The notes beneath the pieces were generated by a model that ran no database searches, had not been told where the DNA came from, and saw nothing but the letters and a program-made list of their open reading frames with translations. 64,000 nucleotides of DNA from Pseudomonas sp. St316 (GTDB lineage Bacteria; Pseudomonadota; Gammaproteobacteria; Pseudomonadales; Pseudomonadaceae), in contig NZ_AP021901.1 in the NCBI RefSeq assembly GCF_018325905.1, positions 868,001 through 932,000 on the forward strand. Direction: 5' to 3'. Both the position numbers and the translations under genes were made by a program. Of this stretch, positions 55,207 through 64,000 are shown piece by piece; position 1 is the stretch's first letter, and each line of letters starts with the position of its first letter.

Positions 55207-58200
55207 TTAGTCGAGCATGAACAACGCATCATTGCTGAACTGCGCTTCAAACCGGGTGGCCGGCATCGGCCGGCCGAACAGGTAGCCCTGGACTTCGTCG
55301 CAACCGTGTTCGCGCAAGAAGTCCAGTTGCTCGTGGGTCTCGACACCCTCGGCGATCACCGCCAGGTTGAGGCTGTGGGCCATGGCGATGATCGCCCGGG
55401 CAATCTGCGCATCCTGCTCGCCGGACGGCAAGCCGTCGACGAAGGTGCGGTCGATCTTCAGCACGTCGATGGGGAATTGCTTGAGGTAGTTGAGCGACGA
55501 ATAACCGGTGCCGAAGTCATCCACGGCGATGCTCAGGCCCAGGTTTTTCAACCCGGCCAGGATCTGCATCGCTTCGCTGACTTCGCGCATCAGGATACTT
55601 TCGGTCAGTTCCAGCTCCAGGCAGGCCGGCGGCAGGCCGGTGCTGCGCAGGATATCGGCGATGCGCGTACCCAACTGGCCGTCGGAGAACTGCCGGGCCG
55701 AAATGTTGACCGAGACCTTCGGCACCCGGACCTTGGCCTGGTGCCACGTCCTGAGCTGCCGACAGGCTTCGGTGATGACCCAGTCGCCGACGTCTACCAC
55801 CAAGCCGAGCTCTTCGAGTACCGGGATGAAATCTCCCGGCGGCACCAACCCGCGTCGCGGATGGCGCCAGCGCAGCAGGGCCTCGGCGCCGGTCAAACGT
55901 TTGCCATCGCCGCTGAACTGCGGTTGGTAATACAGCACGAACTCGTTCTGTTCCAAGGCGTGGCGCAAATCGCTTTCCAGCTCCAGGCGCTCCAGGGCGC
56001 TGGCGTTCATGTCGGCCTGATAGAACTGGAAGTTGTTCTTGCCGCGTTCCTTGGCGTGATACATGGCCGTGTCGGCGTTCTTCATCAACTGGCTCAGTTC
56101 GTTGCCGTCCTGGGGGCTCAGGGCGATACCGATACTGGCGGTGACGAAGAACTCCCGGCCTTCGAGCACGAATGGCCGGACCAGGCTGGCGAGGATCTGC
56201 TCGGCCACGGTAATGGCCCGGTTCAACGCCATCTCGCGGCTGGCGCGTGGTTGCAGCAGCAGGGTGAATTCGTCGCCGCCCATGCGCGCCACGGTGTCGT
56301 CGTCGGCGACGCAACCGAGCAGCCGCGTGGCCATTTCCTTGAGCATCCGGTCGCCGGCGGCATGGCCCAGGGAGTCGTTGATCGGCTTGAAACGGTCGAG
56401 GTCAAGGAACATCAGCACGACCCAGCTCTTCTGCCGCTCGGCCGCTTGCAGCGCGGTGTGCAGGCGGTCCTGGAACAAGGTGCGGTTGGGCAGGTGGGTC
56501 AGGGCGTCGTAGTAGGCCAGGCGATGGATGCGCTGCTCGCTGGCCTTGCGTTCGCTGATGTCACTGAAAAAGCACACGTAGCTGGCCAGGTCGCCTTCGT
56601 CATCCAGCACCGCGGTGATACCGACCCAGGCCGGGTAATGCTCGCCATTGCGACGCTTGAGCCAGACTTCGCCTTCCCAGGTGCTGTGCTGTTGCAGCTG
56701 CTTGAGCACGTAGCGCAAGTGGGCTTCCTGCTGTTCGTCCACGGTCAGCATGTTGGGCAACTGGTCCAGCACCTGCGACACGGCATAACCGCTGACGCGA
56801 CTGAAGGCTTCGTTGGCCTGGACGATATAGCCCGCCGGGTCGGTGATCAGGATTGCCGAAGTCGAATGCTCGAAGACCGTGGCGGCCATGCGCAGGTCTT
56901 TTTCCGCGCGCCGCTGTTGGCTGATGTCGCGGCCGACGCCAAGCACGCCTTCGAACGTGCCGCTTTCATCCCACACCAGCACCAGCCGCAGTTCGATGGG
57001 GATCTTGCGCCCGTCGGCACGCAGGCAGTCGAACAGGAACAGCTGGGTCTGCATCTGGTTGCGCAGCTCGGCCAGTTGTTCGGGTTTGTCGAGGGCCTTG
57101 CTGACCCGGTCCATCAGGCTGTAGATGCCGGTCAGTTGTTGCGGATTGGCGATGATCGATTGCCAGCCGTTCTGGAAGATCCAGTCGGCGGTGTAGCCCA
57201 GCACCGCTTGTACCGACGGGCTGACGTAGTTGAGCGAAAGCTTGTTGTCGGTGGAGAAAATCACGTCACTGATGCTTTCGGCGAGCATCCGGTAGCGTTG
57301 CTCGCTGTCACGCAGCGATTCGCTGGCCTCGATCTGCTCGGTGACATCCTTGGCCACGCCGATGATTCGTGTCACCTGGTTATCCCGGTCCCGGGCCAGG
57401 GCCTGTTCGCGGATGTCGAAGCAGCGCCATTTGCCGTTGCGATGGCGAAAGCGCAGTTGGCATTGCAACAATTGCGTGTACCCGCCCCGCCGTTGTGCCT
57501 GGCGCAGGCTGTGGTAGTGATCGGCATCGTCGCTGTGCAGCAGGATTTCCCAGAAGTACTCGCCCATCTGGTGCAGTTCGGTGCGGTCGTACCCCAGGGT
57601 CTGGCCCAGGTGGTGGTTGCTGAAGATCATCCGCTGGCTGATGACGTCCTGCACATAGAGATGATCCGGCACGGTGCGCACCACGTCGGACCAGAAACCC
57701 TCGCGTTCGAGCAGCGAGAGCTCGATCAGCTTGCGGCTGGTGATGTCACTGATGCTCAGGATGACCGCGTTATGGTCTTGCTGTTTTTCCGGCAGGCGCA
57801 GCACCAGCCACAGGTGCTGGTCGCGGCCGTGAGCGTCCTGGAGCTTGATTTCCAGTTCCAGTTGCTTGTGTTGATCGAGCAGCGCCTCGAGCAGCTTCGA
57901 GCCAACGGGGTTGTTGTCCTGCGCACCCTTGCCGACCAGCAGTTGCCAGGCCTGATCGCAGGAATCGACGTTGAGCAGTTTCAACGCCATCTGGTTGACT
58001 TCGGTGACGTGAACTTCCTGGCGCAATTGCTCGAGTAGATGGGAGGTTTTCGTCCAGGCGCGCAATTGATCGCCCGTGTGCAGGCCGGTCCGCTCAAAAA
58101 AGGCCTTGAGCCCCGACAGGTCGAGCACGCACAGGGCCACGCCAGTGCCTTCGAAAATATCCTGGTAGCGTCGCCGACCCTCATGCAACTGCCGCTGACG

Positions 58201-59055
58201 TCGGCGCATGTTCAAGAGCGCAATCACCGGCAACAACGAAAACGCCAGGCCCAGCAGGCATTTGCCAATGAAGGCCGGCAGCAGTTGTTCGATCACCTGG
58301 CGACGGTCGAACAGCCCCCGCAGTTGCCAGTCGCTGCTGCTCAAGGGCACGGTCAGTACGGTGTTCTCCAGGTCATCCGGGGATAAATGGGTAGGGCTGC
58401 TCGAGGGCAGGCTTTCGTCGCGGCTGATGATCTGCTGGTTGAGACGGTTCTCCACCAGCCACAGCGGGCGCAACCCCATATCGGTCTGCTTGGTCAGGGT
58501 GGCGAAAAAGGTCGGGTCCAGGCGCAAGGCCCAGTAGCCACGGCTGCTACCGCTGGCCTGGTGCAGCAGTAGATGCACGACGGAGCCGTCTTCGGCATTG
58601 CTGAAATAATGGGCCTGGGCCCGGCTGCGCCGCACCAGTTCACCCAGGTAATCGGCGTCAAGGCTGTCGGGGTCGCTGTCGCTGAGTACCCGGCCGGAAG
58701 GGCTCAGCAGTGCCAGGCTGCGCAATTGGGGTAGCGATTGCTGGAGTTTGCGCACCAGGGCCTGCTGTTCGTCGGCGGTCTGTGGTTGTTCGACGATTGG
58801 TAGCAAGTTGAGTGCGATTTGCGCGTTCAGGGCCATGTTCAGGCTGACCTGCGACGCGAGATCGGCGGTGTAGTCGATGGTGTATTGGCGCTGTTGCTGT
58901 TGGGTTTCGCGCAGTTGGTCGAGCAATTGCCAGAACAGCAAGCCCAGCAATAGCAGCACCAGCGTCGCCAGCGCGCCCTTCAATGTCCCGCGCAGGGGCG
59001 AGCCGGGCACGACAGCGGGTGCGCGAGGGGACAGGGGCGGCGTGACGTTGGACAA
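55207..59055 (-). CDS. morA: Membrane-bound diguanylate cyclase/phosphodiesterase MorA
   Basis: 1282-residue c-di-GMP enzyme. Membrane helix at about residues 27-46, periplasmic sensor region, second helix near 262-282, a run of PAS domains (about 300-830), GGDEF domain ([12 protein letters not shown], about 840-1005) and EAL domain ([46 protein letters not shown]; about 1020-1270). Catalytic motifs of both domains are intact; the GGDEF inhibitory RxxD motif is not evident at its usual distance. Position next to glyA and the domain order match P. aeruginosa MorA (PA4601), which controls flagellar timing and biofilm formation. Confidence 0.93.
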
Positions 59056-59326
59056 GCTGTAATCCTGCGGTTTGCTGGACTGGCGCGACGTGCACTATAA
59101 GCCGGACGCCCGAAGGGCGGCTAGCATGCCTTGACTTGTGGCAAAGTGCCAGTCCTTGGCGGCTGGACCTTGACCGACGGTTGAGGTAGCTTTGCCGGTC
59201 AAACAAGAGCGTTCCAGCTCCAGATTCCCAGGCTCTATCCGCGCGCAGGCATTGATGACCGTCAAGTGCCGGCGCCGCGCATGGCCTGGCTCGTTCTTTT
59301 CACCTGTCACTGACGCTAGGTTCACC
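59056..59326. other. Divergent morA/ettA promoter region
   Basis: 271 bases with no credible gene. TTGACT at 59132 and TTGACC near 59169 could serve as -35 elements for ettA, but no good -10 partner is seen. Confidence 0.4.
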
Positions 59327-60991
59327 ATGGCTCAATACGTCTTCACCATGCATCGGCTGAGCAAAGTTGTTCCGCCGAAGCGGGAAATCCTGAAAAATAT
59401 TTCACTGTCCTTCTTTCCCGGCGCCAAGATCGGCGTACTGGGTCTCAACGGTTCGGGTAAATCCACGCTGTTGAAAATCATGGCTGGCGTCGATAACGAA
59501 TTCGACGGCGAAGCCCGCCCGATGCCGGACCTGAACATCGGCTACCTGCCCCAGGAACCTCAGCTGGATCCGACCAAGACCGTCCGTGAAGTGGTCGAGG
59601 AAGCGGTCAGCGTGATCAAGGACGCCCAGGCGCGCCTCGACGAGGTCTATGCCGCCTACGCCGATCCGGATGCCGACTTCGACAAGCTGGCTGCCGAACA
59701 GGCCAAGCTCGAAGCGATCCTGCAAGCCAGCGACGGCCACAACCTGGACCGCCAGCTGGAAGTCGCCGCCGATGCGTTGCGCCTGCCGGCCTGGGACGCG
59801 AAGGTCGAACACCTGTCCGGTGGTGAGAAGCGCCGCGTGGCCCTGTGCCGCCTGCTGCTGTCGGCCCCGGACATGCTGCTGCTCGACGAACCGACCAACC
59901 ACTTGGACGCCGATTCCGTCGCCTGGCTCGAACACTTCCTGCACGACTTCCCAGGCACCGTGGTGGCGATCACGCACGACCGTTACTTCCTGGACAACGT
60001 CGCCGGCTGGATCCTGGAACTGGACCGCGGCGCGGGCATTCCGTACGAAGGCAACTATTCGGGCTGGCTGGAAGCCAAGTCCGATCGTCTGGCCCAGGAA
60101 TCCAAGCAGCAGTCGGCCCATGAAAAAGCCATGAAGGAAGAACTGGAATGGGTGCGCAAAGGCGCCAAGGCCCGCCAGTCCAAATCCAAGGCACGTCTGC
60201 AACGCTTCGAGGAAATGCAATCCCAGGAATTCCAGAAGCGCAGCGAAACCAACGAGATCTACATCCCGGCCGGTCCGCGCCTGGGTGACAAGGTCATCGA
60301 GTTCAAGAACGTCACCAAGGGCTATGGCGACCGCGTGCTGATCGACAACCTGTCGTTCTCCATGCCCAAAGGTGCCATCGTCGGTGTCATCGGTGGTAAC
60401 GGCGCGGGTAAATCCACGCTGTTTCGCATGTTGATGGGCAAGGAAACGCCGGATTCGGGCAGCATCGAAATCGGTGAAACCGTGCAACTGGCCTGCGTCG
60501 ACCAGAGCCGCGAAGACCTGGACGGCAGCAAGACCGTGTTCCAGCAGATCTCCGACGGTTCCGACCAGATCCGCATCGGCAACTATGAAATCCCGTCGCG
60601 CACTTATGTGGGCCGCTTCAACTTCAAGGGCGGCGACCAGCAGAAGTTCGTCAAGGACTTGTCCGGTGGTGAGCGCGGTCGCTTGCACCTGGCGCTGACC
60701 CTGAAGGAGGGCGGCAACGTCCTGCTGCTCGACGAACCGTCCAACGACCTCGACGTCGAAACCCTGCGTTCCCTGGAGGAAGCCTTGCTGGACTTCCCGG
60801 GCGCCGCCATTGTGATCTCCCACGATCGGTGGTTCCTCGACCGCGTGGCGACCCACATCCTGGCGTACGAAGACGACTCGCAAGCGGTGTTCTTCGAAGG
60901 CAACTACACCGAGTACGAAGCCGATCGCAAGAAACGCCTTGGCGAGGCGGCTGCCCAGCCGCATCGCGTACGGCACAAGAAACTGGCCTGA
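59327..60991 (+). CDS. ettA: Energy-dependent translational throttle protein EttA
   Basis: 554-residue ABC-F ATPase that binds the ribosomal E site and restrains translation when ADP is high. Two ATPase domains: Walker A GLNGSGKST and GGNGAGKST, signatures LSGGEKRRVALCRLLL and LSGGERGRLHLALTL, Walker B LLLDEPTNHLD and LLLDEPSNDLD. The P-site-contacting linker is the basic helix EKAMKEELEWVRKGAKARQSKSKARLQRF. ATG 59327 (MAQYVFTMHRLSKVVPPKREIL) is the conserved start. A strong terminator follows. Confidence 0.97.
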   Translation: MAQYVFTMHRLSKVVPPKREILKNISLSFFPGAKIGVLGLNGSGKSTLLKIMAGVDNEFDGEARPMPDLNIGYLPQEPQLDPTKTVREVVEEAVSVIKDAQARLDEVYAAYADPDADFDKLAAEQAKLEAILQASDGHNLDRQLEVAADALRLPAWDAKVEHLSGGEKRRVALCRLLLSAPDMLLLDEPTNHLDADSVAWLEHFLHDFPGTVVAITHDRYFLDNVAGWILELDRGAGIPYEGNYSGWLEAKSDRLAQESKQQSAHEKAMKEELEWVRKGAKARQSKSKARLQRFEEMQSQEFQKRSETNEIYIPAGPRLGDKVIEFKNVTKGYGDRVLIDNLSFSMPKGAIVGVIGGNGAGKSTLFRMLMGKETPDSGSIEIGETVQLACVDQSREDLDGSKTVFQQISDGSDQIRIGNYEIPSRTYVGRFNFKGGDQQKFVKDLSGGERGRLHLALTLKEGGNVLLLDEPSNDLDVETLRSLEEALLDFPGAAIVISHDRWFLDRVATHILAYEDDSQAVFFEGNYTEYEADRKKRLGEAAAQPHRVRHKKLA

Positions 60992-61007
60992 TTCGGTCAG
61001 TTGCATG

Positions 61008-61038
61008 AAAAACGGAGCCCTTGAAGGCTCCGTTTTTT
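61008..61038 (+). terminator. Rho-independent terminator of ettA
   Basis: AAAAACGGAGCC, loop CTTGAA, GGCTCCGTTTTTT, 16 bases after the ettA stop. The A-run on the left would also allow use from the minus strand. Confidence 0.92.
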
Positions 61039-61056
61039 ATGGAGGGCGCAATTCCT

Positions 61057-61146
61057 TGTGGGAGCGAGCCTGCTCGCGATGGCGGTGGGTCTGCCTGCAT
61101 CAATGTTAAATGTGCCGCCGTCATCGCGAGCAAGCTCGCTCCCACA
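61057..61146. repeat. REPIN, family A variant
   Basis: TGTGGGAGCGAGCCTGCTCG from 61057 (one T-to-C change in the left core) and ATCGCGAGCAAGCTCGCTCC with CACA ending at 61146. It lies between convergent ettA and lanM. Confidence 0.9.
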
Positions 61147-61160
61147 GGTTTTTTGGCTGT

Positions 61161-64000
61161 CTATGCTGGTGTCGCGAAATCAAGGGAGAGGACGTTGGGG
61201 ATTGTCGGATCCATCTGGTACAGCAAGGCATAGCCCGCCCCCGCGATTCCAGTCAGCAAGCTGACGTCGGGCACCCGATCACTGTCGAGTAATGGCCCTT
61301 CGAAAAACCGCTGGGCGACTTCCCCAAGTGCCTTTCTGACCCTGCTGATGCCCTCCGGATTATCCGAGTGCCGATACAAGTCATACAGGCAGAGCAGATT
61401 GCCGAAATCGCCATGGCAAAGGTTGTAGCCATCGCCAAGCCCGTGTTGCCAGAGATTGTTCTCGCATCGCTGTATATCGTCGAGCACTGTCTGCCGGGTC
61501 GCTTCGTCCAGGGCATCTCCCATCGATGCCATGAGCTGACGCCTGGCGATGAGGATGCCTCCATCACCGTGGCACCACTTGGACGCATGGTCCACCGGCC
61601 CGAGGTTGCGCAGGTCCAGCCAGAAACCCTCCCGACTCAAGCGGTTTTCGCCCTCCAGCACCTGGATGACCAAGGGCACCAGGGCCGAATCGCCGGTCAC
61701 GTCGTAGGCTTTGCACAATGCATGGATGACGCCTGAGAGGCCATGGGACAAACCCGTCAAAATGACAGAGCGATCGTCGCGTCGCAGAAGCTGGCCGTCT
61801 TCAATCAGGATTTGGTCTTTTATGTAGTCGACCATGCGTCGGATGGCCGGCAGCACATCCTCTTGCGCAGAGAGTGCGTAGATATTGGCCAGCAGCGTCA
61901 CGGCGCCACAACAACCTCCCAGGAAGTCGAAATCATAGTCTTCAGGAGGTACTTCAATCAGTTGGGTCAGCAGGTCGGCAATTTTCTCGTCATGGCGGGC
62001 GTCTCCGGTGACCTGGCGACGATTGATGAGCAGATAAAGGTAAGCCCCCAGCCCGTGATAGGCACTGACCGTCAGGTCGGTCTTGAAAAAACCGAAGCGC
62101 TGTTCCAGTGAGTACAGGACCTGATCCATACGCGACAGAAAGTGCGGATTGCCGCTCACCTTGAACAGGCCCAGATAGAACAAGCCAATCCCGGCGATGC
62201 CGGAGTACAGCCCGTGATCCATTGGCGACGGGTACTTTCTTTGAGTCTTGGGGTGCGTATGGAAAGACAGCCAGCTTACATCCTGTGCCGTGCCCACTAT
62301 CGCGAGTTCTTCGAGGCGGGAACTGATGCTCAGGATCGCGTCGAGGGGCTTGTTTTCAAGGTTTGCCAACGTCGGCTTGATACGGGAGGGGGGATGTCCA
62401 TTCGGTTCCGGGAACAAACAGATTTCGAGCAAGGTGCGTTGCAAGGCCCAGTCTTTCCAGGACAGGTTGGCTATTTTCTGCAGGCAGCTTTCTAGTGGGG
62501 GCTCCACGGCTGCCATTTCTATCGTTTCACCTTGCGCGCTCGTGAAATAGTTGGCGTTCAGCGGCATGGTAAAGCATGGAATGCTGGATCTTTGCAGGTC
62601 GGCTATTTCATAGCGGGGAATGCCTTTTTTCCGATAGGGTTCTTTCAGGTCTTTCCACAAGGTCGCGAGCAGAAGTTCTCTGTCGAGCATGTTTTGCATG
62701 AAGCGTGGATGACGGATCAGCGCGATAAAGTCAGCGTAGCGCTGGGAGTTCTTGAGCAATACGCGGGTCGACAGTTCGCCTGCGGATTGTTCAAGCAGCT
62801 GCATGATCGCGCGCCGATGAACCATGAGCTCGCCGTAGGCATATTCAAAGCCTTGGAGAAGCGCTGCTTTATAAGCTTCGGGCCCCTTGCGCTCATCCCG
62901 CAAAAGCGGCAGGTGTTTTTGCATCAGGTGGTGTTCGAATTCAACTTTTCGCAGATGGTAAAAGCCACCATCGAAAACCAGGGACGGGCGCGTCGAGATG
63001 AATAGCGCTTGCCGGGTCAGACCGCTTTGGTCGTTATTGGGTTGTTGTGAAAAGGGTACGAAGCCACTGGAGCATATTGACTGCTGGAGCAATTTGAAAC
63101 CATTGGCCAGTGCGCAGCCAGCGGGCAGGTCAGTGAGCAGATCGCTGGTGGACGCCGTGAACAAACACTCAAGGTCAATCATGATCGGGCTGTTGCCGCA
63201 CGCGATAATATTTTCGTAGTGAAAGTCGATCCCATTCAACGCATGAATGACGGCTATCTGTGCCCCCATTTTTTGATAGAACAGTTCAACGTCCGCTTCG
63301 CTGTCACAAGGGAGGTTGTCGACTTTCTCTACCCAGCTATGGCGCTCGCGGCTGAGAATCCTTGGGCTATGGATAGAAAAGCAATCTGCGCCTGTCCACT
63401 CATGCAATTGACCAAGAAGACAATAGAAGAAAAGTGCCTCCCGGTTTGCTCTTGGCTTGTAGACTAATGAAGTCGTGCTGATTGTGACTTGGCAGACCGT
63501 TTCGCCGCGACCGTGGGGGTCACCCAGGCCGAGCTCGATAGCCTCGATTTTCCGGGATGAAATCGAAAACTCTCTCTCCAGCGCTTCCGCATCGTCGGCG
63601 AAGTTGTGAATGACTGCATAAAGGTAATGGAGGGTGTCTTCCAGCAGATCAAGCAACAGTGTTGCCAGCACGGGGTAGGATTCGAAAAACGTCAGCAACG
63701 GCAATGTGCGCAACTGCTCATTGAACCCGTTCAGGTCAATGGCATCGCCGTGCGCAATCCGCGTGTTCAAATAATGAACCAGGCTTTGTTCTGCCGTGCG
63801 CCCGACTCGGATCAGGACATAGCGTTCAAGGCTTGCAAACAAGGCGGGTTCATCAATGTGCGTTGACGCATTCAAATAGCGCTCATCTGCCTTGAAGGTG
63901 TCGACGAAATAAAGAAAAAAACGATAGCTGAACCAATAAAAATTATCCGTGCCGCCTGAGCTTTCTTTTGTTTCGACATTAATGTTGTCGAGGCGAGCAA
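61161..64000 (-). CDS. lanM: Class II lanthipeptide synthetase LanM, 5' end beyond window
   Basis: Bifunctional enzyme that dehydrates Ser/Thr of a precursor peptide and closes thioether rings. The frame stays open to the right edge (ARLDNINVETKESSGG... continues upstream of residue 1 of the shorter TTG-started frame), so the N-terminus is missing; about 946 codons are visible. Dehydratase half: LVYKPRANREALF (ATP-site Lys), LNGIDFHYENIIACG and MIDLECLF (kinase-like His, Asn, Asp, Glu known from CylM). Cyclase half: zinc ligands in SKWCHGDGGIL and NLCHGDFGNL, with GLYSGIAGIGLFYLGLF and GCCGAVTLLAN of the LanC toroid. GC is lower than in flanking genes. No precursor, protease or ABC transporter gene is visible; they should lie to the right. 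Confidence 0.93.
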   Translation of the reverse strand, partial: ARLDNINVETKESSGGTDNFYWFSYRFFLYFVDTFKADERYLNASTHIDEPALFASLERYVLIRVGRTAEQSLVHYLNTRIAHGDAIDLNGFNEQLRTLPLLTFFESYPVLATLLLDLLEDTLHYLYAVIHNFADDAEALEREFSISSRKIEAIELGLGDPHGRGETVCQVTISTTSLVYKPRANREALFFYCLLGQLHEWTGADCFSIHSPRILSRERHSWVEKVDNLPCDSEADVELFYQKMGAQIAVIHALNGIDFHYENIIACGNSPIMIDLECLFTASTSDLLTDLPAGCALANGFKLLQQSICSSGFVPFSQQPNNDQSGLTRQALFISTRPSLVFDGGFYHLRKVEFEHHLMQKHLPLLRDERKGPEAYKAALLQGFEYAYGELMVHRRAIMQLLEQSAGELSTRVLLKNSQRYADFIALIRHPRFMQNMLDRELLLATLWKDLKEPYRKKGIPRYEIADLQRSSIPCFTMPLNANYFTSAQGETIEMAAVEPPLESCLQKIANLSWKDWALQRTLLEICLFPEPNGHPPSRIKPTLANLENKPLDAILSISSRLEELAIVGTAQDVSWLSFHTHPKTQRKYPSPMDHGLYSGIAGIGLFYLGLFKVSGNPHFLSRMDQVLYSLEQRFGFFKTDLTVSAYHGLGAYLYLLINRRQVTGDARHDEKIADLLTQLIEVPPEDYDFDFLGGCCGAVTLLANIYALSAQEDVLPAIRRMVDYIKDQILIEDGQLLRRDDRSVILTGLSHGLSGVIHALCKAYDVTGDSALVPLVIQVLEGENRLSREGFWLDLRNLGPVDHASKWCHGDGGILIARRQLMASMGDALDEATRQTVLDDIQRCENNLWQHGLGDGYNLCHGDFGNLLCLYDLYRHSDNPEGISRVRKALGEVAQRFFEGPLLDSDRVPDVSLLTGIAGAGYALLYQMDPTIPNVLSLDFATPA

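Follow-up and report, generated by a model that had tools for sequence, protein, structure and literature searches.

The lanthipeptide synthetase gene at the right end of the stretch studied here (64,000 nucleotides, bases 868001–932000 of the Pseudomonas sp. St316 genome, hereafter the window) raises two questions: does it belong to a working biosynthetic operon, and where is the peptide that it would modify? A sequence-only reading had placed this lanM gene just after ettA, with no precursor gene in a gap of 120 bases, and had named an interrupted lanM N-terminus beyond the edge as a refuting result. The sequence was extended to the right of the window, to base 965000 of the genome (a single contig of 6.78 Mb); positions beyond the edge are given in window numbering (position in the extension, L002, plus 57000). 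lanM is on the minus strand and open at the window edge. Its 945 C-terminal whole codons and its stop, defined by the ORF and profile matches, occupy 61161..64000 (coding sequence 61161–63998), and 77 whole codons plus part of the 78th are outside. The completed gene (L002:4161–7232, reaching 64232) encodes 1023 amino acids from an ATG preceded by a Shine–Dalgarno-like CAGGAG; it is intact, and an interrupted N-terminus was rejected.

The left neighbour of lanM, and the border of the insertion described below, is ettA (59192..60991, plus strand). Its name is our reading of the gene, for which the ABC domains and the ABC_tran_Xtn domain provide the computed support, and its true start is probably downstream of the first ORF start. 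lanM does adjoin ettA, but the two genes do not run in the same direction: they lie tail to tail on opposite strands, so that the lanM 5' end and the precursor genes fall beyond the window edge. An outside precursor had been rightly expected; the gap between the convergent stops (60992..61160), however, is 169 bases long and contains no precursor, and we rejected it as a site for lanA because it is at the wrong end of lanM. By reading of the letters, this gap carries a pair of REP-like inverted sequences (GTGGGAGCGAGC...GCTCGCTCCCAC) as well as a GC-rich inverted repeat with T's at its end; a terminator scan of the gap found none at the scan threshold. A similar REP-like pair was seen at the empty site of another genome (G010).

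Beyond the window edge, on the minus strand, lanM is preceded by a spacer with a 9-bp hairpin (64233–64317), by lanA2 (64318–64476; 52 amino acids, four Cys) and by lanA1 (64638–64781; 47 amino acids, three Cys), these genes being 85 and 405 bases upstream of lanM, respectively, and then by a conserved block (64782–64930). The lanA1-lanA2-lanM cassette includes no exporter, protease, immunity or regulator gene. A larger island to its right was rejected, as that region holds gre-like, lipoprotein-like, Lnb_N/DUF7840, DUF3015 and Lon-like genes (the lipoprotein-like and Lon-like names are readings of the sequence, made with no family call).

All the LanM motifs named earlier from the window were present in the translation, and the protein matched TIGR03897 with 543.9 bits (cut-off 304) over profile positions 19–932 of 932, almost the entire LanM subfamily model, as is required of a class II synthetase; it also matched Pfam DUF4135 and LANC_like. 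Its best PDB sequence matches were LicM2 (260 bits) and CylM (170 bits). Similarly, the AlphaFold model (mean pLDDT 74, pTM 0.60) had LicM2 (E 4e-29) and CylM (E 4e-28) as top PDB folds, with TM-scores of 0.50–0.58 for the predicted model and a loose whole-model fit (rmsd 11.6 A with LicM2, 12.2 A with CylM). The St316 LanM thus has in common with CylM and LicM2 (PDB 5dzt, 6st5) the dehydratase and LanC-like cyclase domains, the active-site and zinc residues and the predicted fold; the structural alignment gives identities of 22% (LicM2) and 18% (CylM).

The dehydratase active-site residues and the three zinc ligands were kept in 15/15 intact LanMs of clade A, to which the St316 protein belongs, and in 6/6 of clades B/C (see below for the clades); the dehydratase and zinc site labels in this alignment are what we take to be the CylM positions. 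The aligned elimination position, presumably CylM Thr512, is Ser in clade A (15/15) and Thr in clade B/C. In two short LanM-like proteins, of G440 and G160 (L065:9257–13677 and L066:6627–11036; 899 and 801 amino acids), Ala takes the place of the first zinc Cys, which shows that the residue table is able to reveal a degenerate LanM. These two proteins are possibly non-cyclising LanM relatives, and an ABC transporter gene adjoins each of the two genes. In a LanM tree, clades A, B and C grouped together with support 100/100; their place among other LanMs is unsure because of long branches. There is good support for a function as class II lanthipeptide synthetase and, as had been proposed, the enzyme is likely to be active.

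The lanA1 product ends TIVECGTAECTALLC and the lanA2 product ends ECNTFGTCTNIGCSTLGC. Both are precursors linked to lanM, with Cys and Ser/Thr in a C-terminal core, and they share a leader, MSE-IL-MSGDF...YQ (M-S-E-x-I-L-x-M-S-G-D-F...F-x-x-Y). A precursor profile built from 12 rows matched the two of them in the St316 genome (E 1.3e-25 and 2.4e-24), the next match having E 1.24, and a Pfam/NCBIfam scan of three precursors (two from St316, one from G058) gave no precursor family and two unrelated matches (E 0.05, 0.28). In the 14 LanA1 sequences from intact loci, Thr/Ser is found 4, 3 and 4 residues ahead of the three core Cys, and in the 15 LanA2 sequences from intact loci it is found 4 residues ahead of each of the four core Cys; this count leaves out clade B precursors, which have extra Cys. 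The core is strongly conserved between species. The aligned leaders contain no conserved double glycine (GG/GA/GS), contrary to the GG-type leader that had been anticipated, and the leader–core junction is the variable part.

Both LanA1 and LanA2 are present at 14/16 clade A loci. The P. frederiksbergensis locus has LanA1 and a degenerate ORF in place of a full LanA2, and the P. citri locus has LanA2 and no LanA1. One genome (G395) has two LanA2 copies. In P. fluorescens ISL-33 (G368), an extra precursor was observed downstream of lanM (L051:13024–13173); precursor copies therefore vary. The lanM of G443 is broken up over three reading frames (L064:8421–11498), and LanA1 of this genome lacks the middle core Cys, LanA2 being intact, which is likely to reflect loss of function of this operon. 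The one-precursor loci and the broken lanM of G443 indicate that the operon is dispensable.

Conservation extends to the non-coding parts of the cassette. A stretch of about 110 bases ahead of lanA1 is conserved in the alignment of 13 of 15 LanA1 loci; it includes TGCTACTGTTTT, with the presumed start just after it, about 40 bases before lanA1, and then a small stem of five pairs (93.8% of cells are paired, and two of the pairs have changes on both sides). A consensus scan upstream of lanA1 returned no sigma-70 promoter at the scan threshold, so the promoter is placed from conservation. At every clade A locus (16/16) the lanA2–lanM spacer forms a stem of 9 bp whose triloop varies; a single compensatory change was seen, in sp. 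K18, and the St316 spacer has a folding z of -2.5. Five of the six clade B/C spacers fold as one stem of 9–12 pairs, different in sequence from that of clade A (z of -3.1 to -3.3 in G058, G426 and G186, -1.9 in G266, -3.5 in G314); the sixth, in G355, has a different fold (z -3.0). In lantibiotic operons, a hairpin commonly separates the precursor gene from the enzyme gene. The St316 hairpin was rejected as a REP element, since its pattern occurs at one place in the genome.

That the gene is uncommon in the genus was borne out: TIGR03897 at E 1e-20 matched 24 of 398 sampled Pseudomonas genomes (St316 included), 19 of them above the family cut-off. Assigned by neighbourhood and similarity, these comprise 12 genomes with clade A LanM at the ettA/gre-like site (11 intact, and G443 broken), five with clade B near glyA, gltP or cobW (LanM 41–45% identical to that of St316), G314 with a LanM 40% identical at a third site, and six with unlike LanM-type genes. 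Among these six, the neighbourhood was read for four, and G224 and G259 were classed from the profile match alone, which in both contains in-frame stops. A second, unlike LanM type was observed in G006 and G368, where the adjacent precursor starts with MQID and its core, PCTSCCTQCWNxCC, is rich in Cys (L063:7936–8118, L062, L067), and G286 has a LanM-like gene apparently of the same sort. The precursor profile, run on a genus sample of equal size whose listed genomes agree with those of the LanM scan, matched 18 of 398 genomes, exactly the 18 with LanM clades A, B or C; as five of them (G000, G039, G058, G265, G314) had given profile rows, 13 are independent.

A contig profile scan gave eight loci (P. 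kilonensis, P. zanjanensis, P. thivervalensis, P. fluorescens ISL-33, P. frederiksbergensis, sp. RGM2987, P. citri and sp. K18). Pooled with the genus sample, and with four overlaps (G039, G265, G368 and G352) counted once, this made 16 distinct clade A loci, all with ettA and a gre-like gene beside lanM. Among 20 loci compared over the GGDEF-type flanking gene (55207–59055 in St316), the nearest to St316 was P. kilonensis (94.7% nucleotide identity), and the strain is presumably in or near the P. kilonensis group. We rejected a close LanM relative elsewhere in the class, since only St316 itself was found at E 1e-60 in a thin sample of 369 class genomes, and also a plasmid source, as the 19 plasmid records matched at E 1e-40 were 23–26% identical and none was from Pseudomonas.

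The origin of the cassette was examined in 19 relatives that have the gre-like gene and no clade A LanM. In 7/19, ettA lies about 84–385 bases from the gre-like gene (measured from match ends), and in the other 12 ettA was absent within the 1.5 kb examined at the gre-like gene. The same empty arrangement, with 100 bases between the genes, is present in G058, which carries clade B elsewhere. Given these empty sites, lanA1-lanA2-lanM looks like a self-contained insertion; of the acquired biosynthetic island proposed earlier, acquisition by insertion holds, and the island shrinks to these three genes. The lower GC content was confirmed, at 0.53 for the cassette and 0.540 for lanM versus 0.618 for window positions 1–60991, and lanM GC was below that of the flanking gene in 19/19 tabulated loci.

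lanM is under purifying selection: dN/dS was 0.11–0.18 in five pairs that include St316 and 0.13–0.19 in four other pairs. It is less constrained than the GGDEF-type flank (about 0.05–0.08 in the five St316 pairs). At silent sites, lanM was more diverged than the flank in 7/9 pairs, about equal in G000–G395 and less diverged in G039–G208. Distances of lanM and of the flanking gene were partly matched (Mantel r 0.52, p 0.004, 15 loci; r 0.50 with 14 loci), which suits inheritance at the site with some allele exchange and leaves the insertion undated.

A transporter of the LanT type had also been expected nearby. No match to a C39-ABC exporter was obtained within 33 kb on the right side of the window. 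When 16 clade A and six clade B/C loci were searched by tblastn with three peptidase-ABC exporters (16–23 kb per locus, only 1.6 kb on one side in G058, best match per reference), only EttA ABC domains were returned (25–29%). In the St316 genome, the sole C39 peptidase over the cut-off was FapD, encoded in a fap locus; a type I secretion ATPase scored below the cut-off. FapD was rejected as the missing LanT because it is the amyloid-fibre peptidase of the fap locus, a second role still being possible. A FapD-sized protein was present in 17/17 further genomes with LanM clades A, B or C; strong exporter-sized C39 matches occurred in G265 and G058, on contigs other than that of lanM, and weak ones (21–31 bits, starting after the first 12–17 profile positions) in long frames of 13/17 genomes, family identity having been established for the St316 proteins only. 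As the leaders are without a conserved double glycine and LanT gave no match, the locus does not look like a LanT-containing class II cluster. The two kinds of feature that had been set to refute the finding if missing are therefore split: precursors are there, and a transporter was not found in the regions searched.

A peptidase-ABC transporter adjoins LanM in 3/3 plasmid loci opened (of 19 matched). These class II clusters, from Bacillus velezensis, Priestia megaterium and Trichormus variabilis, likewise have a small precursor near LanM; unlike the St316 locus, they have the adjacent peptidase-domain transporter and precursors named for described lantibiotic families, and their LanMs are 23–25% identical to that of St316. 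At other proteobacterial LanM loci (seven opened of nine, partial phylum matches G921 and G1016 left out), 6/7 had no PCAT match within about 8 kb (L133–L138) and 1/7 had one. Exporter-less LanM loci may thus be common in Gram-negatives, and the absent exporter need not mark decay. Cinnamycin-type class II systems also have a leader with no double-glycine site, like the Pseudomonas LanA leaders, but they possess an AxA-type site and other tailoring genes, neither of which was seen at the Pseudomonas locus.

Taken together, these data lead us to propose, with a probability of roughly 85%, that lanA1, lanA2 and lanM form a class II lanthipeptide operon of three genes, which was inserted between ettA and a greA/B-like gene and follows the modification scheme below. 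Gene content, co-occurrence, selection, catalytic residues and the Thr/Ser–Cys spacing are observed; from them we infer ring formation and transcription as an operon. The operon very probably yields two thioether-ringed, lantibiotic-type peptides. By homology, LanM would recognize the short leader common to LanA1 and LanA2, phosphorylate core Thr/Ser and then eliminate the phosphate. The zinc cyclase domain would add each Cys to a dehydrated residue 3–4 positions ahead, giving three small methyllanthionine rings in LanA1 (T33–C37, T39–C42, T43–C47) and four in LanA2 (T32/33–C36, T38/41–C42, T43–C47, S48/T49–C52). The lanA2–lanM hairpin may hold precursor mRNA above enzyme mRNA. Given that the search beside the operon yielded no C39 exporter, leader removal and release might, more tentatively, go through a non-dedicated host protease and transport.

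Other explanations have to be weighed against this one. That the small ORFs arose by chance and LanM modifies something else is hardly credible: they are short and belong to no described family, but precursor and LanM clade occur in the same 18/398 genomes and position, spacing and the Cys/Thr pattern are conserved, so this reading is already contradicted. A second possibility, which we consider improbable, is that the locus is the remnant of a larger lantibiotic cluster that has lost LanT, protease and immunity, so that peptides are perhaps modified and nothing leaves the cell. Decay would agree with the lack of any exporter match beyond EttA ABC domains at the 16 clade A and six clade B/C loci, with the transporter adjacent to LanM in all three plasmid loci opened of 19, with the broken lanM of G443 and the two loci with a single full precursor, and with the weaker constraint on lanM than on the flank. 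It is at odds with the recurrence of the compact set over 16 loci, with a lanM dN/dS of 0.11–0.19 in nine pairs, with the conserved upstream block and hairpin and with the gain of precursor copies (G395, G368); moreover, six of the seven proteobacterial loci opened (of nine) also have no PCAT match within about 8 kb.

The lack of a nearby C39-type exporter match and of a conserved double glycine is compatible with a working system that makes its products not for export but for use within the producer cell or at its own envelope (as signal, regulator or defence). Conservation of the core across species, unlike what is expected of a diversifying toxin, points the same way; we nevertheless judge this reading unlikely. 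A working minimal operon, with an undescribed leader that has no conserved double glycine and with non-dedicated trimming and release, is the most likely explanation. More speculatively, the locus could represent a lineage of minimal systems in Pseudomonas with one LanM, two co-conserved peptides and a new leader, in which the peptides are matured and released without a dedicated protease-exporter, or act in the cell, and in which their role (as a signal, a self-directed regulator or a two-part antibacterial) holds the core almost invariant between species.

Lanthipeptide clusters have been called in Pseudomonas before. A putative precursor beside a TIGR03897 LanM is described in P. fluorescens strains (PMC8719888), and lanthipeptide clusters, some putatively class II, in Q2-87, 1M1-96, MVP1-4, F113 and Ph11C2 (PMC9059233). 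Class II clusters were listed in 2/37 Pseudomonas genomes, and five in a P. fluorescens set (PMC8704066). The cluster reported in P. thivervalensis NFX104 is 27% identical to a protein of the haloduracin beta entry (PMC13074693), and a sea-roach gut Pseudomonas has a lanthipeptide region whose class is not given in the accessible text (PMC9720083). C39 and ABC families are generally over-represented near class II synthetases, according to the portion of the study available (PMC12715929). P. thivervalensis carries a clade A locus, and some of the published clusters, detected by antiSMASH or TIGR03897, probably represent loci of this kind. The available portions of this open-access literature give type calls, with no precursor sequences, locus anatomy, missing exporter or product. 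A new product, as suggested earlier, is thus anticipated in print as far as lanthipeptide calls go, and no precursor or product is described in those portions.

In conclusion, the enzyme is ordinary; the precursor family and the exporter-less minimal form are new. Our analysis raises the question of how a lanthipeptide of a Gram-negative bacterium loses its leader and leaves the cell if the operon encodes no exporter. It also supplies precursor sequences for Pseudomonas class II clusters, which the type calls, in the published text available, do not include; with these in hand, the product is directly testable, since two peptides of 47–52 amino acids and one enzyme are easily co-expressed.
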